The notes beneath the pieces were generated by a model, which was not told the origin of the DNA, did no database searches, and saw only the letters and a list, made by a program, of their open reading frames with translations. Both the position numbers and the translations under genes were made by a program. Below, piece after piece: positions 4,103 to 19,874 of a DNA stretch of 64,000 bases. Numbering within the stretch: position 1 is the stretch's first letter; each line of letters begins with the position of its first letter. Source of the stretch: Oscillatoriaceae cyanobacterium Prado104 (GTDB lineage Bacteria > Cyanobacteriota > Cyanobacteriia > Cyanobacteriales > Microcoleaceae); assembly GCA_025454405.1 (NCBI GenBank), contig JALOON010000023.1:62001-126000 (forward strand), given 5' to 3'.

Positions 4103-7100
4103 ATGATTGATATTGGTTCTTTAGTTCGATCGCCCAAAAACGATTTGGGAGTCGGCAAAGTAGTAGAAATATCCCGCACCGATGCGGTAATCGAGTATTT
4201 TTGTTCGGTAAAACAGCGCATCCGCAAAACTTTACCCTTAGGCGCTCTGCAGGAAGCCAGACTCCAACGGCAAACTAGATGCTACCTCTGGTTTCCCAAA
4301 CTGCAACGGTGGATCGTCGGTCGAGTTTTTGACTGGGATGAAGATACTTTATACTACGAAATTGACTTGCCTGAAAGTCAAACTGTACAAGTACGCGAAA
4401 AAGATATTTACGTTCGCTGCAATATTCCAATTCCCGATCCGATCGAAATTTTAGCAGTCAAAGGTCAAGAAACTCCTTATTTTCACGACCGGCGGCTGGC
4501 TTTCGTGCAATCCGCGATCGAACAACGAGCATTCAGTCGCGGCACGATCGGTTTGATTTCTGCTAATATTGACCTTTACCCGCACCAAGTTGCAGCGATC
4601 CGCCGCGTTCTAAAAGACCCGATCCAACGCTATTTATTGGCAGATGAACCGGGACTCGGAAAAACAGTAGAAGCCGGAACTATTCTCCGCCAATTTCTAT
4701 TAGATGAAACCGAGGGACGCGCAGCGGTAATAGTTCCCAAATACCTGCTAGAACAGTGGCGTCAGGAATTGCAAAGCAAATTCAATTTGTCTCAATTTGG
4801 GGACAGAGTGCAGCTTGTTTCTCTGAACGACATCAATCAAATCAGCCGCAATGCTAACGTAGATTTGACAATTATCGATGAAGCGCACCGCGTCGCGGCG
4901 ATGGTGAATTCGAGCGATCGAACCCAACAACAATGCTTTGAAGTCTGCCACAGTCTCGCCCGCAGAAGCAAGAATTTATTGCTGCTATCTGCCGTACCAG
5001 TTGCCGGAAATGAGGAAAATTTTCTAACAATCCTGCACTTGTTAGAACCTAAAACTTACCAACTTGACAGCATTGAAAGTTTGAAAAAACAAGTGCAAAA
5101 ATGTCAGGATATCGGACGCGAAATGGTCGATTTTAGAGAAAGTTCTCAGTCCGATGTTTTGCAAGCCAAACTCGATCGACTCCGCAAAATTTTGGCTGGT
5201 GATAGTGGTTTTACGCAGTTGGCGGATCAGTTAGAAAGTTGTTTGGCTAGTAAAGAAAATAGCAAGTGCGATCGACTTGTCAGCGCTATTCGCACTCGCG
5301 TTAGCGATACCTACCGCTTGCATCCCCGCATTCTCCGCAACCGCCGCAATGCAGTAGAAGATGTCATTTTCGATCGCGATACCGTTCCTAAAATTGAGTA
5401 CGATTTGAATGACGAACAATGGTTGGAAATTCACAGCCTGCTAGATAATTGGCGCAATGCCGCTCCTAAATCGATCGCGTATCAAAGAATTTTCCTGCTG
5501 TTTTTCATCGCTGGCGGTACTTGGCTGAATCTTTGGGAACGAGCAATCAAAGCTCGCTTGCTGGGAAAATCGACTGCGGAAATCGATCGAGAATTTGGCA
5601 AAGAGGACGCAGCAATTTTGACCGAAACGGAACAGTTTTCCGGGGAAAGAGAACTGCTGAAAAACTTGCTGCAAACCCTCCAAAAGCCTCAGGAAGGGCT
5701 CGATCGCATTAGTTTGTTGAGAATTGCCATTATCCAATTTGTGGCTGTTGCGTTGAAAATTCCGCCCCAATATCGCGGCAACCCTCGCGAATTGCTGGCG
5801 AAAATTCAAGAGAGAATTAAAAGACAAATTACGGGCGATCGGTTTCCCAAAATTGTCATCTTTACCAGTTTTACAGTAACTTGTCAAGAAATTGCTGACA
5901 GTTTGGCAAAAATCTTTGGGAAAAAAGCAGTAGCCAGCCATCAAAGAGGCAAATCAGGAGATGATGCGGCGGCCAATTTGAAGCGGTTTAAGCACGAACC
6001 TAATTGCTTTATTTTAGTATGCGATCGCTCCGCAGAAACCGGCTTAAACTTGCAATTTACCGACTGGTTAATTCATTTCGATCTACCTTGGTTTCCCGAT
6101 CGATTGGAGCAAAGATTGGGCAGGGTCGATCGCATTGGTAGCAAAATGGGCGTGCAATTTACGTTGTTTGCCGGCCCCGATATGCCCGACAGTCTTTACG
6201 AAGCTTGGTTTAAAGTTTTAAAAGATGGGTTTGGCATTTTCCAGAAATCTATTGCCAGCCTGCAAGTTTATGTCGCCCAAAAACTTCTCCAACTAGAAGA
6301 ACTACTGTTTGTCGGAGGAGCAACAGCGGTGTTGAGCGAAATTGCCTCGATTAAAAAGGAACTCGAACAAGAGCAAATTAAAATAGACGCACAGTACGCA
6401 CTAGATGAAATCGATTTGGTTGGTGACAGCGCATCCGAGTATTTTTCAGCCCTCGAAAATGGCGATGCCCGCCATCAAGAAATGCAGCGGGCGGCCGAAG
6501 GTTGGATCTGTCAAGCCTTGAATTTCAAACGGATCGAACATCCAAACGAATCCGGTTTGCTGCGCTATCAACCCAGTCAAAAAACCTTGATTGCTTCGGG
6601 CGATTTGACAGCTAAATTCATCCCTCATTTTCAGCGTTACGGTACTTACAACCGCCGCATTGCCAACCAACACAGAGACGTGAATATTTATCGTATTGGT
6701 GAGGGTTCGATCGATGCTTTTAATGCTTATATGCGTTGGGACGAGCGGGGTCAAGCCTTTGCCATGTGGCGTCACGAGGAAAGTTGGGATGCAGCAGAAG
6801 GCAAAGAGTGGTTTGGCTTGCAATTTAATTATTCGATCGAAACCGATTTGCAGCCCGCAGAGCAAGTTTTGCAGCAACAACATATCGAGAATTACAACTT
6901 AAAAACTTTGCGACGGCGGACAGATGCTTTGTTTCCTCCCAAATTGGAAATGGTGTTTGCAGAAGCCAGCAGCAAGCAGGTTTCTTTGGTTGAGAATGCG
7001 GAAATTCTGAAGATTTTGCAGCGCCCTTATCGGGGGAAAGGCGGACCGAATCGGGATTACAATTTGTCGAAAAATCGGATGTCGGTTATTGACAACTTTA

Positions 7101-7438
7101 TCCCACCGCAAGAATGGGATGCTTTCTGTCAAAAAGGGCGGCAGATATCTGAGGAATTGTTGCGGGCAAAAGCAGAGTTTAAGGAAAGGTGCGATCGAGC
7201 TGCTGAAAGCGCTAAAATGCAGCTCAAAGATCGGGTCGATCGATGGCAATTGCGATTGCAGCGGCTGCCAGCACCGGAACAGCTTTCGGAATCGGTATTG
7301 GCGCAAGAAATCGTTACGGAGGGTGCGTTAATTGAAGCAATTGTAGCGGGAATTCGCCAGCCGCGCATCGGTTTGGAATCGGTGGGGTTTATCATTATTT
7401 CCGGTCGCCCTCCTGCCAAATCGGAGGATGACGAATGA
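4103..7438 (+). CDS. DpdE-like SNF2/DEAH helicase (orphan)
   Basis: This 1111 aa protein is an SF2 helicase/translocase. After an N-terminal beta-rich region (about 1-110) comes FFHDxR-like text (PYFHDRRLAFVQSAIEQRA, ~130-150). Then come Walker A ADEPGLGKTVEAG (~179-191), IIDEAHR (DEAH box, ~256), and the C-terminal helicase lobe with VIFTSFTVTCQEIADSL (~585) and RLEQRLGRVDRIG (~667, motif VI). About 400 further residues, partly coiled-coil, follow. N-terminal architecture and wording resemble DpdE, the helicase of the Dpd 7-deazaguanine DNA-modification/restriction cluster; a HepA/RapA-type SNF2 protein is the alternative. No dpdA, B, C or other Dpd genes are adjacent. HIP1-like GCGATCGC-type codons run through it, as in its neighbours, so it does not look recently acquired. 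Confidence 0.75.
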   Translation: MIDIGSLVRSPKNDLGVGKVVEISRTDAVIEYFCSVKQRIRKTLPLGALQEARLQRQTRCYLWFPKLQRWIVGRVFDWDEDTLYYEIDLPESQTVQVREKDIYVRCNIPIPDPIEILAVKGQETPYFHDRRLAFVQSAIEQRAFSRGTIGLISANIDLYPHQVAAIRRVLKDPIQRYLLADEPGLGKTVEAGTILRQFLLDETEGRAAVIVPKYLLEQWRQELQSKFNLSQFGDRVQLVSLNDINQISRNANVDLTIIDEAHRVAAMVNSSDRTQQQCFEVCHSLARRSKNLLLLSAVPVAGNEENFLTILHLLEPKTYQLDSIESLKKQVQKCQDIGREMVDFRESSQSDVLQAKLDRLRKILAGDSGFTQLADQLESCLASKENSKCDRLVSAIRTRVSDTYRLHPRILRNRRNAVEDVIFDRDTVPKIEYDLNDEQWLEIHSLLDNWRNAAPKSIAYQRIFLLFFIAGGTWLNLWERAIKARLLGKSTAEIDREFGKEDAAILTETEQFSGERELLKNLLQTLQKPQEGLDRISLLRIAIIQFVAVALKIPPQYRGNPRELLAKIQERIKRQITGDRFPKIVIFTSFTVTCQEIADSLAKIFGKKAVASHQRGKSGDDAAANLKRFKHEPNCFILVCDRSAETGLNLQFTDWLIHFDLPWFPDRLEQRLGRVDRIGSKMGVQFTLFAGPDMPDSLYEAWFKVLKDGFGIFQKSIASLQVYVAQKLLQLEELLFVGGATAVLSEIASIKKELEQEQIKIDAQYALDEIDLVGDSASEYFSALENGDARHQEMQRAAEGWICQALNFKRIEHPNESGLLRYQPSQKTLIASGDLTAKFIPHFQRYGTYNRRIANQHRDVNIYRIGEGSIDAFNAYMRWDERGQAFAMWRHEESWDAAEGKEWFGLQFNYSIETDLQPAEQVLQQQHIENYNLKTLRRRTDALFPPKLEMVFAEASSKQVSLVENAEILKILQRPYRGKGGPNRDYNLSKNRMSVIDNFIPPQEWDAFCQKGRQISEELLRAKAEFKERCDRAAESAKMQLKDRVDRWQLRLQRLPAPEQLSESVLAQEIVTEGALIEAIVAGIRQPRIGLESVGFIIISGRPPAKSEDDE

Positions 7439-7470
7439 TATCGCGTGCGATCGATTGCCAGTAATAAAAA

Positions 7471-7610
7471 CGGTTCGTAGTGAGGACTTTAGTCCTCAGA
7501 AGATTGCAGACAAAAACGGTTCGTAGTGAGGACTTTAGTCCTCAGAAGATTGCAATCAAAACAGTTCGTAGTGAGGACTTTAGTCTGCAGGATATTGCGG
7601 AAGGGAACCC
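7471..7610 (+). repeat. Three tandem copies of a ~46-bp unit
   Basis: Copies begin at 7471, 7517 and 7562. Each has GTAGTGAGGACTTTAGTCCT, where AGGACTTTAGTCCT is itself a palindrome. The third copy has diverged (TTTAGTCTGCAGG). They lie directly downstream of the helicase gene and could fold as consecutive hairpins. Confidence 0.85.
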
Positions 7611-7678
7611 ACACTACGAACCAATATTATTGCTATCAATTGACCGGAGACCGTATTACTCTAAAATCGCATCCTCTT

Positions 7679-7712
7679 AAAGCCGTCCTAGAAGGACGGG
7701 GCTTTAAACCCA
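7679..7712. repeat. Hairpin AAAGCCGTCC...GGACGGGGCTTT
   Basis: The arms AAAGCCGTCC and GGACGGGGCTTT flank TAGAA. The hairpin resembles fold-backs at ends of IS200/IS605-type elements, but no transposase coding is seen here. It may also help end transcription of the upstream helicase before gatA. Confidence 0.45.
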
Positions 7713-7789
7713 AATTTTTGGTAAGTTAGGTGCAATTGACAGCTATATTGGCTAAGGGGCTGTTAAGTAGAAACGATAAAGGTACGAGC

Positions 7790-9250
7790 ATGGCATCCAT
7801 CCGCGAGTTGCACCGACAACTGGTCAATAAAGAACGCTCTGCTGTAGAGATTGCTCAAGAAGCATTAAACCGCATTACCCAGCTAGAGCCGAAGTTGAAA
7901 AGCTTTCTGTGCGTAACGGCAGACAGGGCATTGGCGCAGGCCCGCAAAGTGGATGCCCAAATCGCAGCAGGCGAGGAAATCGGAATGTTGGCCGGCATTC
8001 CGATCGCCGTGAAAGATAATATGTGTACCGAGGGCATTCCCACCACCTGCGGGTCTCGGATTTTAGAGAATTTTGTGCCTCCCTACGATGCCACGGTTGT
8101 CTCGAAACTTGTAGCAGCCGGTGCTGTCATCGTCGGTAAGGCAAATATGGACGAGTTTGCCATGGGGAGTTCGACGGAAACTTCCGCTTACCAAATTACG
8201 GCGAATCCTTGGGATTTGCAGCGCGTGCCCGGAGGATCTTCCGGGGGGTCGGCGGCTGCGGTGGCCGGTGAGGAATGCACGGTGAGTTTGGGTTCGGATA
8301 CGGGAGGTTCGATCCGCCAACCTGCTTCTTTTTGCGGTTTGGTGGGCCTGAAACCGACTTACGGGCTGGTTTCTCGCTACGGTTTGGTGGCTTACGCTTC
8401 TTCGCTGGATCAAATCGGACCCTTCGGCAGGACTGTTGAAGATGCGGCGATTTTGTTGGGGACGATCGCGGGTTACGATCCGAAGGATTCGACAAGTCTC
8501 AAGATTAAAATTCCCGATTACGCTCAAAGTTTGAGACCCAGTTTGCGGCCGAGGGGTCAAATTAGAATTGGGGTAATTAAAGAAACTTTTGGGGTGGGAT
8601 TGGATTCGTCGGTGAAGGAAGCTGTTACAAAAGCGATCGAACAATTCCAATTATTGGGAGCAGAAATTCAAGTGATTTCTTGTCCCCGATTCCGCTACGG
8701 TTTGCCGACTTATTACATTATTGCTCCTTCAGAAGCTTCGGCAAATTTGGCAAGATACGATGGCGTAAAATACGGTTTTCGATCGCCCGATCCCGACAAT
8801 CTTTTGGATATGTATGCCAAAACCAGATCTCAAGGGTTCGGTACTGAAGTTAAGCGCAGAATTGCGATCGGCACTTACGCCTTGTCTGCCGGATATTACG
8901 ACGCTTATTATCTCAAAGCTCAAAAAGTTCGGACTTTAATTAAAGAAGACTTTGAAAGAGCTTTTGCTCAAGTTGATGTTTTGGTCTGTCCTACTGCCCC
9001 AACTACGGCCTTTAAAGCTGGCGAAAAGTTTGACGATCCCCTAAGCATGTATTTGTCCGATTTGATGACAATTCCGGTGAATTTAGCTGGCTTGCCAGCT
9101 TTGAATTTACCCTGCGGCTTTGATGAAAACGGACTGCCGGTGGGCATACAGCTAATCGGTAAGGTTTTGCAGGAATCTCGGCTGTTTGAAGTAGCGCATG
9201 CTTACGAACAGTCTACTCCGTGGCACCTGCGCCGCCCGCAGTTGTATTAA
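7790..9250 (+). CDS. gatA: Aspartyl/glutamyl-tRNA amidotransferase subunit A
   Basis: GatA hydrolyses glutamine and passes ammonia to GatB, which amidates Glu-tRNA(Gln) and Asp-tRNA(Asn); cyanobacteria need this because they lack GlnRS. The chosen ATG at 7790 ([11 protein letters not shown]) gives 486 aa, the normal length; an in-frame upstream start at 7730 would add 20 unlike residues. The Ser-cisSer-Lys triad is visible: Lys75 in AVKDNM, Ser150 in PGGSSGGS and Ser174 in [11 protein letters not shown]. The gene is monocistronic here; gatB and gatC are not in the window. Confidence 0.97.
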
Positions 9251-15131: not shown

Positions 15132-17795
15132 ATGTCTTTCGTTGGATTGCACATTCACAGCGATTACAGCCTGCTAGATGGCGCGTCTCAGTTGCAGCAA
15201 CTAGCTGAAAGGGCCGTAGAATTGGGAATGCCCGCGATCGCCCTTACGGATCACGGTGTCATGTACGGGGCGATCGAACTGATCAAGGTTTGCCGAAATA
15301 AAAATATCAAGCCAATTATCGGCAATGAAATGTATGTTGTTAACGGCGATATTGAGGTCAAAGTTAGAGGTAGAAAAAAATACCATCAAGTTGTTTTAGC
15401 CAAAAATACTCAAGGTTATAAAAACCTCGTCAAGCTGACAACAATTTCCCATCTCAAGGGAATGCCGGAAAAAGGAATTTTTGCCCGTCCCTGCATCAAT
15501 AAAGATTTGCTCGAACAATACTCGGAAGGCTTGATTGTTACCAGCGCTTGTTTGGGTGGCGAAGTTCCGCAAATGATTTTGCAGGGGAAGTTAGATAGCG
15601 CCCGCGAGGTTGCTCAATGGTATCAAAGAGTATTTAAAGAAGATTATTATTTAGAAATTCAAGACCACGGTTCTCCAGAAGATAGAATTGTGAATCTGGA
15701 AATTGTGAAAATTGCGCGGGAACTGAACATTAAAATCGTTGCGACGAACGATTCTCACTACATTTCTTGCAACGATGTGGAAGCGCACGATGCTTTGCTG
15801 TGCATCAATACTAACAAATTAATTGAAGAAGAAAAGCGGATGCGCTACAGCGGCACCGAGTATTTGAAATCCGCAGCAGAGATGGCGCAACTGTTTCGCG
15901 ACCATTTGGATGATGCCATAATTAAAGAGGCGATCGAGAATACTTTAGAAGTTGCAAATAAAGTCAAATCCTACGATTTAACCGGCGAAGCGCGGATTCC
16001 GACGATCCCGATTCCCCCAGAACATACAGCAGATACTTATGTAGAAGAAAAATCCTGGGAAGGACTTTTAGAACGCCTGAGAGTTAGAAATCGCAATGAA
16101 ATTCCCCCCGTTTACAAACAAAGGCTGGAATACGAACTCAAAATCATCCAGCAAATGGGTTTTTCGGAATATTTTTTAGTAGTTTGGGATTACATCAAAT
16201 ACGCCAGAGACAATAACATTCCCGTCGGGCCGGGGCGCGGATCTGCCGCCGGTTCTCTCGTGGCTTACGTGCTGAAAATTACCAATATTGACCCCGTACA
16301 TCACGGATTGCTGTTCGAGAGATTTCTCAATCCCGAACGCAAATCCATGCCGGATATTGACAGCGATTTCTGCATCGAAAGGCGCGACGACATGATTAAA
16401 TACGTGACGGAAAAGTACGGCGAAGAACGAGTCGCGCAAATTATTACATTTAACAGGATGACATCAAAAGCTGTTTTGAAAGATGTTGCCCGAGTTTTAG
16501 GAATTCCTTACAAACAAGCCGATGAAATGGCAAAATTAATTCCCGTTTCGCGCGGCAAACCGGAAAAACTTAAGGTGATGATTTCCGACGAAACACCGGC
16601 ACTGGATTTTAAAACAGCTTATGAAGAGAAAGTTTGCACCAACGAAGAAACTGGAAAAGCAGTTTCTGTCAAACAGTGGATTGACATGGCGATGCGCATT
16701 GAAGGAACTAACAAAACCTTTGGCGTTCATGCTGCGGGAGTGGTGATTTCTTCGATTCCGCTAGACGAGATCGTGCCGCTGCAAAAGAATAATGAAGGTG
16801 CGGTAATCACTCAGTATTTCATGGAAGATTTAGAATTTTTGGGCTTGCTGAAAATGGATTTTCTGGGGCTGAAAAATTTAACAACGCTTCAGAAAACTGT
16901 TGATTTTGTTAAGGAAAGTCAAAATTTGACGATCGACCCCGAAAGCCTTCCTGCTGATATAGAAAGAAGAGCTCAAGAGACTTTTTCCAGGCTAAAAAAG
17001 CTGCCCGGTGATGTAGCAAAAACTTACCAACTGTTAGAAAGAGGAGATTTAGAAGGAATTTTTCAGTTAGAATCTTCGGGGATGTTGGATGTAGTAAAGA
17101 AAATCAAACCTTCTTGTTTGGATGATATTTCTTCGATTTTAGCGCTGTACCGTCCCGGCCCGTTGGATGCTGGTTTGATCCCGCAATTTATCGATCGCAA
17201 GCACGGCAGAGAGGTAGTTAAATACGACCACCCGCTGTTAGAACCGATTTTAAAAGAGACTTACGGAACGCTGTGTTTTCAAGAGCAAATCATGCGGATG
17301 GCTCAAGATTTGGCGGGGTATTCTTTAGGTCAAGCTGACTTGCTGCGCCGCGCGATGGGCAAGAAGAAAGCGGAGGAAATGCAGAAGCAAAAGGAAACAT
17401 TTATCGACGGTGCAACTAAGAATGGTGTTGCTCAAAGAATAGCCGAAGAATTGTTCGGACAGATGCTACAATTCGCGGAATATTGTTTGAGTTATGACAC
17501 GGAAATTTTAACTGTGGAATACGGATCGATCGCGATCGGCAAAATAGTTGAGGAAGCAATAGAATGTATGGTTTATAGTGTCGATCGTAACGGTTATATT
17601 TATACACAACCGATCGCGCAGTGGCACGATCGAGGCGAACAGGAGGTTTTTGAGTATTCTTTGGATGATGGTTCGATAATTAGGGCTACTAAAGACCACA
17701 AATTTATGACTGATGGAGGTCAAATGTTGCCTATTGACGAAATATTTGAAAGAGGATTAGAATTAACACAAATTAACTCTATATTGAATTTATAA
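15132..17795 (+). CDS. dnaE: DNA polymerase III alpha subunit, N-terminal part fused to split-intein N half
   Basis: This is the replicative polymerase catalytic subunit up to the conserved intein site. The start [20 protein letters not shown] at 15132 opens the PHP domain. The polymerase core is recognisable by [18 protein letters not shown] and the catalytic MPDIDSDFC. The last extein residues are [11 protein letters not shown], after which the text becomes intein ([14 protein letters not shown]...). Total 887 aa, of which the last 103 are intein. Splicing with the product of the following gene is needed to make a full DnaE. The upstream in-frame extension to 15009 derives from repeat DNA. 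The stop at 17793-17795 follows the normal length of a DnaE-N intein half (102-103 aa in well-known homologues). Confidence 0.96.
17484..17792 (+). other. Split intein, N-terminal half (IntN, 103 aa)
   Basis: Cys1 begins [14 protein letters not shown] and block B contains [10 protein letters not shown] (the TxxH-type motif). The half ends after [12 protein letters not shown] and a short tail. It closely resembles the fast DnaE split intein of Nostoc, including [19 protein letters not shown]. All residues expected for trans-splicing chemistry are visible. No homing endonuclease domain is present. Confidence 0.95.
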
Positions 17796-17918
17796 ATCGG
17801 CGGTTGAAACCGCGTTTGCACATACAAAGTCCGCCTGCGCGGACTAAGAAATAAAGCAGATATGAACGTAAGGTGCGCACTGCGCACCCTACAGATAGAT
17901 AGAGTAGAGGTAACAAAC
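17796..17918. repeat. 123-bp spacer between intein halves, made of palindromic repeats
   Basis: It consists of CGGCGGTTGAAACCGCGTTT, a GTCCGCCTGCGCGGAC palindrome (17831-17846), a GGTGCGCACTGCGCACC palindrome (17873-17889), then a GTAGAGG Shine-Dalgarno-like site 8 bp before ATG 17919. The upstream in-frame ATG at 17862 would translate the repeat (RCALRT) and is rejected as start. Confidence 0.9.
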
Positions 17919-18026
17919 ATGGTTAAAATTATCAGTCGCAAATCTGTAGGAACTCAAAAAGTCTATGACATTGGTGTGGAACGCGACCATAACTTTATCC
18001 TAAACAATGGTTTTGTGGCATCTAAC
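17919..18026 (+). other. Split intein, C-terminal half (IntC, 36 aa)
   Basis: It begins MVKIISRKSVGTQKVYDIG and holds ERDHNFIL (block F) and GFVASN with the terminal Asn (block G). Cys+1 of CFN follows at 18027. Length and motif match other cyanobacterial DnaE IntC sequences. Confidence 0.95.
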
Positions 18027-19874
18027 TGCTTCAATAAATCCCATTCAATGGCCTATGCCTATGTCACCTATCAAACTGCATATTTAAAAGCAAATTATCC
18101 TGTAGAATACATGGCCGCGCTGCTGACTGCTAATAGCGGCGATCAGGATAAAGTGCAGAAATACATCGCAAATTGCCTGAAGCTAGGTATCGAAGTAGAT
18201 CCGCCAGATGTTAATAGTTCGGACGTGAATTTTACACCGCTACCGAGAAAGGGGACTCGTCGGGCTAAGGATAAAATTATGTTCGGACTTTCCGCTATTA
18301 AAAATATCGGAGAAGGCGCAATTGAAAATATTTTGACGGCGCGGAAAGAAGGCGGGGAATTTAAATCGCTGGCAGATTTGTGCGATCGCGTCAGCCTGAA
18401 TGCTGTTAATAAACGTGCGTTAGAAGCTTTAATTAACTGCGGTGCTTTGGATAAAATTGATAAGAATCGCAATCAATTAATGCACGACTTGGAAGGAGTC
18501 ATGAAATGGGCAGCCGATCGCAAAAAAGATCGAGATAGCGGTCAAGGTAGCCTGTTCGATCTGTTGGGAATGGCGAGTCTGGATAACTCCGCAAATACTT
18601 TTGATTCTGTCCCAAAATCCAAGCCTGTCAGCGATTACCCTACGGCACAAAAATTGCAATTTGAAAAAGAATTGCTGGGTTTTTACGTCTCGGAACATCC
18701 GTTAAAAACTTTGGTGCAAACGAATCAAGATAAAGATGTTGTAACTATTGGAGAATTAGGAGAGAAGAAGGGTAAAGTATCGATTATTATTACGATCGCA
18801 TCGATTAAACCTGTAGTGACAAAGAAAGATAGCAGGCGGATGGCGATCTTGCAAATAGAAGATTTGACTGGGAAATGCGAAGCTGTCGTGTTTCCCGATA
18901 CTTTCGAGAAAATTGGTGCTTTAATAGTTGATAATGCTATTTTGTTAGTAGCAGGCAAAATCGACAAGCGCGAAGACCAAATTCAAATAATTGTCGAGGA
19001 TGCAAAGCCGCTGCAAGCGGAACCACTGGCAGGAGAAACTGATACAGAAACGCTGGAAGAGGAAGGCAATGATTTCAGCAATCCGTTCGATATTCTACCA
19101 GGAGAAACCGAGATCGAGACGCCGGAAAATGCAGTAAATGGTTTCGATCGACCGATGGATATCCCGCAAGCAACAACAGCAGAAATCAAGAACGAAACAC
19201 CGCCAGCAATAGAGAATAGTCGCGATCGAAATGTTGATATTCCACAATCAAGAACAGCGGAAATCAAGAACGGAACGCCGCCAGCAGTAGAGAATAACCG
19301 CGATCGAACTGTTGATATTCCACAATCAAAAACAGCGGAAATTAAGAACGAAACGCCGCCAGTAGTAGAGAATAGCCGCGATCGATCGATCGATATTTCG
19401 CAAGCAAGAAAAGCAGAGATCGAGAATGCAACACCGGAACAGCAAGTTAATGTTGTCAAGCCAACAAAACCGCCGAGACTCTTGCAGGTTGTAATTGTTA
19501 AGTTTACACCAGAGCAGGTAAAAAATTCTGAAAGAATCAACGACTTAAAATCTCTCCTGCAGGAATTTTCTTCCGGGGGAAAAGATACTGGCGTATTGGT
19601 AGGGGGAATAGTCTTCGGTAAATATTCCTGTCAGCCCTTCTGGATGGGGCGTAATTTGTGGGCGGTAGATGGTGCGAAAATTTACAGTCGCCTCAGGTCT
19701 GCTCATTTTGATGCTTGCATCTATACTGTAACTAATAATGACAGTATTTTGGCAATTGAGAAAATGCGAGAGCAACTGAAGTTGCATGCTTGGGCTAATA
19801 GTTTGTTGGAGGCCGATCGCGCTAAACTGGATCGGTATTGGCATTATCTTGACCTGTTAGAGCCACCTTGGTAA
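17919..19874 (+). CDS. dnaE: Split-intein C half fused to DNA polymerase III alpha subunit C-terminal part
   Basis: The 651 aa product begins with the C half of the split intein (36 aa ending GFVASN) followed by Cys+1 and the C-extein CFNKSHSMAYAYVTYQTAYL. Downstream are the helix-hairpin region (MFGLSAIKNIGEGAI), the beta-clamp and OB-fold region (MAILQIEDLTGKCEAVVFP) and the tail. Between the OB fold and the C-terminal domain lies a low-complexity acidic linker holding four 26-residue repeats, which is unusual for DnaE. The gene follows dnaE-N by 123 bp on the same strand, so both could be one transcript. Confidence 0.96.
   Translation: MVKIISRKSVGTQKVYDIGVERDHNFILNNGFVASNCFNKSHSMAYAYVTYQTAYLKANYPVEYMAALLTANSGDQDKVQKYIANCLKLGIEVDPPDVNSSDVNFTPLPRKGTRRAKDKIMFGLSAIKNIGEGAIENILTARKEGGEFKSLADLCDRVSLNAVNKRALEALINCGALDKIDKNRNQLMHDLEGVMKWAADRKKDRDSGQGSLFDLLGMASLDNSANTFDSVPKSKPVSDYPTAQKLQFEKELLGFYVSEHPLKTLVQTNQDKDVVTIGELGEKKGKVSIIITIASIKPVVTKKDSRRMAILQIEDLTGKCEAVVFPDTFEKIGALIVDNAILLVAGKIDKREDQIQIIVEDAKPLQAEPLAGETDTETLEEEGNDFSNPFDILPGETEIETPENAVNGFDRPMDIPQATTAEIKNETPPAIENSRDRNVDIPQSRTAEIKNGTPPAVENNRDRTVDIPQSKTAEIKNETPPVVENSRDRSIDISQARKAEIENATPEQQVNVVKPTKPPRLLQVVIVKFTPEQVKNSERINDLKSLLQEFSSGGKDTGVLVGGIVFGKYSCQPFWMGRNLWAVDGAKIYSRLRSAHFDACIYTVTNNDSILAIEKMREQLKLHAWANSLLEADRAKLDRYWHYLDLLEPPW
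19155..19440 (+). repeat. Four tandem 78-bp repeats inside dnaE-C
   Basis: Units start at 19155, 19233, 19311 and 19389 (last partial). Each codes for a 26-residue motif of the type VDIPQSxTAEIKN followed by TPPAxEN and RDR, the RDR being read from a GCGATCG (HIP1-like) core. The constant 78-bp spacing keeps frame. Confidence 0.92.

Follow-up and report, generated by a model that had tools for sequence, protein, structure and literature searches.

Why do the two halves of a split DnaE intein lie almost side by side in the genome of Oscillatoriaceae cyanobacterium Prado104? Split DnaE inteins rank among the tools most often used for protein splicing, and the stretch of DNA analysed here (the window: 64,000 nucleotides, positions 62001-126000 of contig C80 in the source genome, G000, which comprises 8.54 Mb in 161 contigs) carries both halves of one, in the neighbouring genes dnaE-N and dnaE-C. 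We argue that the two halves are probably adjacent by descent: they would derive from a homing cassette in which a homing endonuclease gene (HEG) stood between dnaE-N and dnaE-C, and from which the HEG has since been lost.

The upstream gene, dnaE-N (15132..17795, plus strand), encodes the N-terminal part of DNA polymerase III alpha, with PHP, pol3 alpha and finger domains, and matches the equivalog model NF007079 at 1677.6 bits (cut-off 1525). Its 784 N-extein codons (15132 to 17483) are followed by the N-terminal intein half, IntN (17484..17792, plus strand), and by a TAA stop codon at 17793-17795. IntN has 103 residues, including Cys1 and the block B motif TKDH; it matches the NCBIfam model TIGR01445 (intein_Nterm) at 55.9 bits against a cut-off of 24.5 and, when queried from its second codon, the solved DnaE split inteins 4qfq (E=1.9e-49) and 2keq (E=4.2e-49). 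The downstream gene, dnaE-C (17919..19874, plus strand), begins with the C-terminal half, IntC (17919..18026, plus strand), whose 36 residues match TIGR01443 (intein_Cterm, NCBIfam) at 34.4 bits (cut-off 15.6) and the solved DnaE split intein 5ol7 (E=2.4e-14). IntC closes with FVASN, its terminal Asn standing directly before Cys+1 (18027) of the C-extein, which opens with CFNKSHS and runs through to 19874. This C-terminal part of the polymerase contains HHH_6 and OB-fold domains, and dnaE-C scores 575.6 bits with NF005616, below the cut-off of 646. With an upstream in-frame ATG (17862) as its start, dnaE-C would be 19 residues longer; we prefer the start at 17919 because of homology and because a Shine-Dalgarno-like GAGG, read from the sequence, lies 8 nt before it (17907..17910, plus strand).

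Each half is single-copy in the source genome: IntN has one match there, and IntC has one plus a weak stretch of 50% identity on another contig. With an IntN, an IntC and two separate reading frames, the locus is a naturally split DnaE intein. Trans-splicing is to be expected, since the locus has Cys1, the block B motif TKDH, the terminal Asn of IntC and Cys+1. The first-pass annotation had described two intein halves 123 bp apart on the same strand, and the coordinates, together with the profile and structure matches, confirm that description. In the tail of dnaE-C (window 19110-19440), about three near-repeats of about 32 residues (TAEIKNETPP..ENSRDR..DIPQ) can be read by eye.

The 123-bp spacer between the halves (17796..17918, plus strand) is, as had also been claimed, made up of palindromic repeat DNA. 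It contains the palindromic repeats GGCGGTTGAAACCGCG (17799..17814) and AAAGTCCGCCTGCGCGGACTAAG (17826..17848), each with one match in the window, and a dispersed 25-bp palindrome, GTAAGGTGCGCACTGCGCACCCTAC (17868..17892), which recurs at 6 places in the window (10 strand-matches), where shuffled sequences gave a mean of 0.00. Palindromic repeats are shared with the spacer of a second genome of the same genus, G434, with an 89.9% match over 69 nt. Other candidate contents of the spacer were rejected: Rfam gave no match at the gathering score in the window or in seven further loci that could indicate an RNA element or intron, and the one terminator-like pattern between the halves (17826..17848) lies on the minus strand only. 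Misassembly of distant loci at the repeat is unlikely, because both halves lie within one contig of 137,033 bases and because the same order recurs in the assemblies of relatives, among them G043 (one contig) and G046 (6 contigs).

In most split genomes of the genus, a gene occupies the position of this spacer. We searched 29 genomes of the genus (E<=1e-18), including those of Microcoleus vaginatus HSN003 (G043) and Lyngbya sp. CCAP 1446/10 (G030), and found that dnaE is split and adjacent in 14, intact and intein-less in 13, and interrupted by a contiguous intein in one (G057); the remaining genome, without a match, is 74% complete (G433). All 14 split pairs lie adjacent on one strand, so the adjacency is not peculiar to the source genome. 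Ten of the 14 spacers carry a gene for a protein of about 259 residues with two LAGLIDADG motifs; these ten measure 773 bp in eight genomes, 747 in one and 3305 in another. The four HEG-less split genomes have spacers of 123 bp (the window), 348 bp (G434), 209 bp (G044) and 320 bp (G051), and the last of these retains the final 12 residues of the endonuclease. One metagenome genome, G054, has the split dnaE with its endonuclease on one of two contigs, C553 or C393, and an intein-less dnaE on the other; this double state reflects either a mixture or two alleles.

By its motifs, catalytic acids and predicted fold, the spacer gene of the relatives is a LAGLIDADG homing endonuclease. It matches Pfam PF14528 (LAGLIDADG_3; E=1.1e-11), phrog_4645 over nearly its whole length (E=5.1e-44) and, among PDB profiles, 2dch (E=7.8e-6). 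The two LAGLIDADG motifs contribute Asp82 and Asp173, which are invariant in 45 sequences, and a structural model built from these 45 sequences (predicted local distance difference test, pLDDT, 92.5) again found 2dch as its best match (E=3.9e-9, TM-scores 0.46/0.56); an earlier model, with a pLDDT of 51 and before viral relatives were added, was not used. The frame is intact in eight of the ten carriers in the genus, since the G043 copy is interrupted by an insertion and the G053 copy has one stop. Within the G043 locus (L071, about 5400-7910), some 2.5 kb with transposase-like frames lie inside the HEG. At the 773-bp loci, the HEG start codon adjoins the dnaE-N stop (as in TAAAATG), and the HEG stop and IntC start overlap (as in ATGGTTAA), so that the three genes form a tight unit, probably translationally coupled. 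The ratio of nonsynonymous to synonymous divergence (dN/dS) within the genus was 0.153 for the HEG (45 pairs, 10 genomes), next to 0.154 for IntN, and lower for the N-extein (0.066) and RpoB (0.024). These data show that the HEG is under purifying selection, looser than that on the host genes.

In the family and phylum samples, the endonuclease was found only at the DnaE intein site. Across 61 genomes of the family, the HEG is full-length in 13 (10 with open frames) and survives as a tail remnant in three, and no HEG was found at any other site in these genomes at E<=0.001. In a sample of 386 genomes from the phylum it occurs in five (four full, one remnant), each time at the DnaE intein site. 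A pattern scan of a species-genome collection, which was not exhaustive (it missed G004, G006, G046 and G336), returned 13 loci. Twelve of them are flanked by IntN and IntC: ten belong to genomes already counted, and the extra two are UBA9251 and the Synechococcales metagenome genome MAG81 (L135); the thirteenth is a Lachnospiraceae protein at 25% identity. In all, the HEG sits at the DnaE intein site in 16 genomes, including one from another order (G336), where it has a frameshift near its end. The cassette dnaE-N/HEG/dnaE-C is thus present also in Planktothrix, in other genera of the family and in two distant cyanobacterial lineages; in G004 the adjacency is inferred only, because contigs end at the border between endonuclease and IntC.

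Several further observations concern the ends of the HEG and its relatives. In G006 (L092) and G336 (L102), the IntN tail overlaps the HEG start in another frame, an overlap that may explain why IntN tails are variable; two IntN tails of family f2 (G060, G123) look like those of G006 and G336, with the HEG gone. Viral relatives of the HEG, 38 of which were aligned, are 24-32% identical to it. Two such relatives lie inside phage dnaE near codon 405 (viral contigs L150, 4001-4762, and L167, 2077-2757), at another site than that of the DnaE split intein and without a match to that intein; dnaE-like sequence was present in 8 of the 80 viral loci kept from 470 confirmed. Finally, a LAGLIDADG-like YYLLGFLQGDG stands about 600 bp downstream of IntN in G206 (L349, 759-827 in the orientation of dnaE-N; the match itself is antisense), with a weak score (E=0.035).

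Together, these findings suggest how the locus in the window came about. Its two proteins would be made from neighbouring, probably co-transcribed genes, pair through IntN and IntC, and be trans-spliced into one polymerase subunit. The ancestor would have been the three-gene cassette, dnaE-N, LAGLIDADG homing endonuclease and dnaE-C, which 10 of the genus's 14 split genomes still have in intact or decaying form. We propose that the endonuclease cuts an intact dnaE at the intein site and that repair then copies in the whole cassette, so that an essential gene would be invaded and split in one step. After fixation the endonuclease would decay, and three fates may follow: the halves remain neighbours, separated by a junk spacer, as in the window; they scatter, as in three genomes of the Planktothrix genus and, by extension, most cyanobacteria; or they fuse again, for which G057 is the best case.

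Intein-bearing and intein-less alleles occur side by side within the genus. On an RpoB tree, presence and absence of the intein require at least 13 changes over 51 genomes of the family and at least seven over 26 of the genus (G054 scored as present; G434, G041, G033 and G433, with no or too little RpoB, were off the tree). One genome of the family contains two rpoB-like loci (G010:C1:5080163-5083320 and 6300011-6303160). The split allele of Microcoleus vaginatus HSN003 and the intein-less allele of G017 are identical across 54 bases around the site. In the HEG tree, G336 groups with G004 and G006; the window's family as one clade was rejected (approximately unbiased test, p-AU 0.0009; 15 rows, G043 not included). 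Synonymous divergence was 0.273 for the HEG and 0.300 for IntN, as against 0.347 and 0.457 for the exteins and 0.517 for rpoB (28 pairs, 8 of 10 genomes). One intein tree gave a grouping similar to that of the HEG tree (support 95); we do not rely on the intein trees, because both place G069 among the Microcoleus inteins with weak support. In other genera of the family, dnaE-N genes (L090, L092-L096, L099, L100) contain, upstream of the split site, a second intein that differs from the split one. Overall, the mobility data fit occasional homing and loss but stop short of proof, and the evidence for transfer is mixed.

A number of observations weigh against descent from a mobile cassette. The test on the intein alone did not reject one family clade (p-AU 0.166; G123, G348, G025 and genomes matched only by another intein were left out), and we therefore rejected the intein tree as proof of transfer. 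Synonymous divergence of the short IntC, 0.465, is not low, unlike that of the HEG and IntN. Co-conversion around the site is weak: the ratio of present-absent divergence peaks at 1.18, a flank effect that is slight at most and too weak to serve as proof of homing. A search for HEG relics next to 40 IntC and 44 IntN ends, almost all of them in other families, turned up none, though it did recover the three positive controls and G336 (the 44 include the N half of G012; the orientation of IntC was correct in 40 of 40). For the window itself, no match to the HEG was found in the spacer or anywhere in the source genome, and relocation elsewhere in that genome was accordingly rejected; the spacer also has no recognisable HEG residue, so that loss in this line is argued from parsimony, and since G434 and G057 likewise have no HEG, loss at the base of the genus with a regain in its main clade is possible. 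A promoter-like match (10 of 12) lies before the spacer at 17734-17763, which bears on co-transcription; the region holds 12 such matches against 9.3 in shuffles, a number within chance. Lastly, many of the genomes compared are draft or metagenome assemblies, one of them with both dnaE states.

Some of these points speak for a vertical history, in which adjacency is ancestral, the cassette is immobile, and intein-less and fused genomes represent plain losses and deletions. The unrejected family clade in the intein test and the weak co-conversion both fit it, and an earlier study likewise attributes patchiness to convergent loss (PMC5029880). Nevertheless, exact removal of a split intein together with its HEG would presumably need recombination with an intact allele, and at least seven changes would have to fall within one genus. 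The constraint on the HEG and the conflict between its tree and the family also run counter to an immobile cassette. We regard this vertical history as unlikely and prefer descent from a mobile cassette.

The contiguous inteins bear on a further possibility: that in the Planktothrix genus (g3, which includes Planktothrix sp. UBA8402, G041) the contiguous mini-intein of G002 and G034 came first, and that insertion of the HEG made the split, so that splitting was repeated. Both genomes have intact fused frames, and their junction looks like the split junction minus the segment from the IntN tail to the IntC start codon, a form that is equally compatible with clean insertion and clean deletion. 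Against this possibility, the fused and split inteins of the Planktothrix genus group together (support 98; 86 in a second tree), and the HEG of that genus groups with that of Microcoleus. In G057, moreover, the evidence points to re-fusion: an alignment pairs its linker with the terminal part of the G434 spacer, palindromic-repeat tail and ribosome-binding stretch included, and the former start codon is now ACG. None of 2000 shuffles aligned as well for G434, as compared with 15 for the window and 140 for G044, and G051 and G046 showed no excess. One tree (support 96) groups the G057 intein with those of G000 and G434, a second leaves it unresolved, and on the RpoB tree the G057 genome is nearer to the rest of the genus than G000 is. 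Natural re-fusion thus seems to occur, because this linker resembles a repeat-bearing spacer end; the G057 case needs checking, since the genome is 84% complete and has a frameshift further downstream. We consider repeated splitting of an older mini-intein improbable, although for G002 and G034 taken by themselves the contiguous state may be the older one.

Across the 103 genomes of the phylum sample in which both halves were matched, 12 pairs lie within 10 kb, 42 are on different contigs and one is fused (G002). All 12 neighbour pairs are arranged N-to-C on one strand, an order expected by chance in about one of four independent cases, and no pair within 10 kb in this sample had another orientation; they span six families (four each in f1 and f2, the others in f18, f19, f26 and f29). 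The next nearest pair, in f24, is 14 kb apart and runs C-to-N. Traces of the endonuclease also persist where the halves are no longer linked: in the Planktothrix genus, three of three genomes with unlinked halves (G012, G023, G037) retain 30-39 residues of the HEG tail directly before IntC, and G037 has a weak match to a piece of the HEG start as well. Dispersal there therefore followed an adjacent cassette. HEG deletion remnants were found, too, in G014, G019 and G051. That the halves were once far apart and reunited in this family, with an HEG landing between them later, is very unlikely: distant halves, or halves on separate contigs, do prevail among the split genomes of the phylum sample, and phages commonly carry free-standing HEGs of this type, but the uniform order in six families, the tails beside IntC in dispersed Planktothrix-genus genomes, and an HEG at the corresponding junctions in Microcoleus, Planktothrix, MAG81 and G336 all argue against it.

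These results bear on the alternatives that the first-pass annotation had left, and support them in part. That halves are usually far apart holds for the phylum sample, where distant or unlinked pairs are the commoner state, but not for this genus. A later return to neighbouring positions finds no support, given the common orientation and the remnants, and the same evidence favours an original neighbouring order that was kept. Loss of an endonuclease domain plus a new stop codon is not the picture seen in the relatives, where 10 of the 14 split genomes of the genus have a free-standing HEG instead (eight intact). Nor is the window an early split state, because its spacer is a later stage, without the HEG.

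The window is thus one stage of a possible cycle. The HEG-bearing split cassette of its relatives, together with the coexisting stages of that cycle, is the larger finding, and is new as far as the accessible literature goes: there, with most subscription journals outside its coverage, we found no report that cyanobacterial dnaE halves have an endonuclease gene between them. More tentatively, we propose as a possibility that a gene-splitting homing cassette, with a free-standing HEG between the intein halves, gave rise to the split DnaE intein of cyanobacteria and still spreads it, and that later loss of the HEG leads to adjacency, dispersal or re-fusion, all coexisting in one family. If this is true, then every homing event that inserts the intein also splits an essential replication gene. 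One family offers the possible intermediates: an intact gene, the HEG-bearing cassette, the decayed cassette of the window, scattered halves with a remnant, and a fused intein. The origin and mobility of split inteins thereby become directly testable.

In previous accounts, split inteins are said to derive from a break in a mini-intein, with the dnaE halves in different parts of the genome (review, PMC7765530), and the cyanobacterial DnaE intein was most likely gained once and lost convergently (PMC5029880). The split dnaE has been called an evolutionarily stable arrangement (PMC3403396), a view that the coexisting states of this family question. Thermosynechococcus strains have the split intein except in one basal genome (PMC9403480). 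In Desulfonema ishimotonii, two adjacent dnaE frames occur with a contiguous DnaE intein of 415 residues that is related to the cyanobacterial ones, and the case is said not to be a split intein (PMC6390638).

Compared with known systems, the intein in the window has the same insertion site and similar IntN and IntC lengths as the split DnaE inteins of Ssp, Npu and others, and shows clear homology to the solved structures. In Ssp/Npu-type systems the two genes lie in separate genome regions (PMC7765530), whereas in the window and its genus they are neighbours, with an HEG between them in 10 of 14 split genomes. Contiguous inteins with a nested endonuclease carry it at the place where the relatives have their HEG, about 35 residues from the C-end of the intein (the C35 site, PMC6801210); in the relatives, but not in the window, there is instead an independent endonuclease frame that has a start and a stop codon of its own. 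Free-standing phage endonucleases of the HTH-LAGLIDADG type (phrog_4645, PF14528) belong to the same family as the relatives' HEG, but in the genomes searched, close relatives of the cyanobacterial HEG occur only at the DnaE intein site. A further parallel is offered by the fractured genes that Dassa et al. are said to have described in 2009, in which an enzyme gene is broken by a split intein and a free-standing endonuclease gene stands between the halves; those loci were reportedly metagenomic, mainly from phages, and half of them had a Vsr-like endonuclease. The window has the broken enzyme gene with adjacent halves and no intervening endonuclease gene; its relatives have both the broken gene and the intervening endonuclease. 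They differ from the reported fractured genes in that the gene is a cyanobacterial dnaE, the enzyme is of the LAGLIDADG type, and the locus occurs side by side with alleles that are intein-less, decayed, dispersed or fused.
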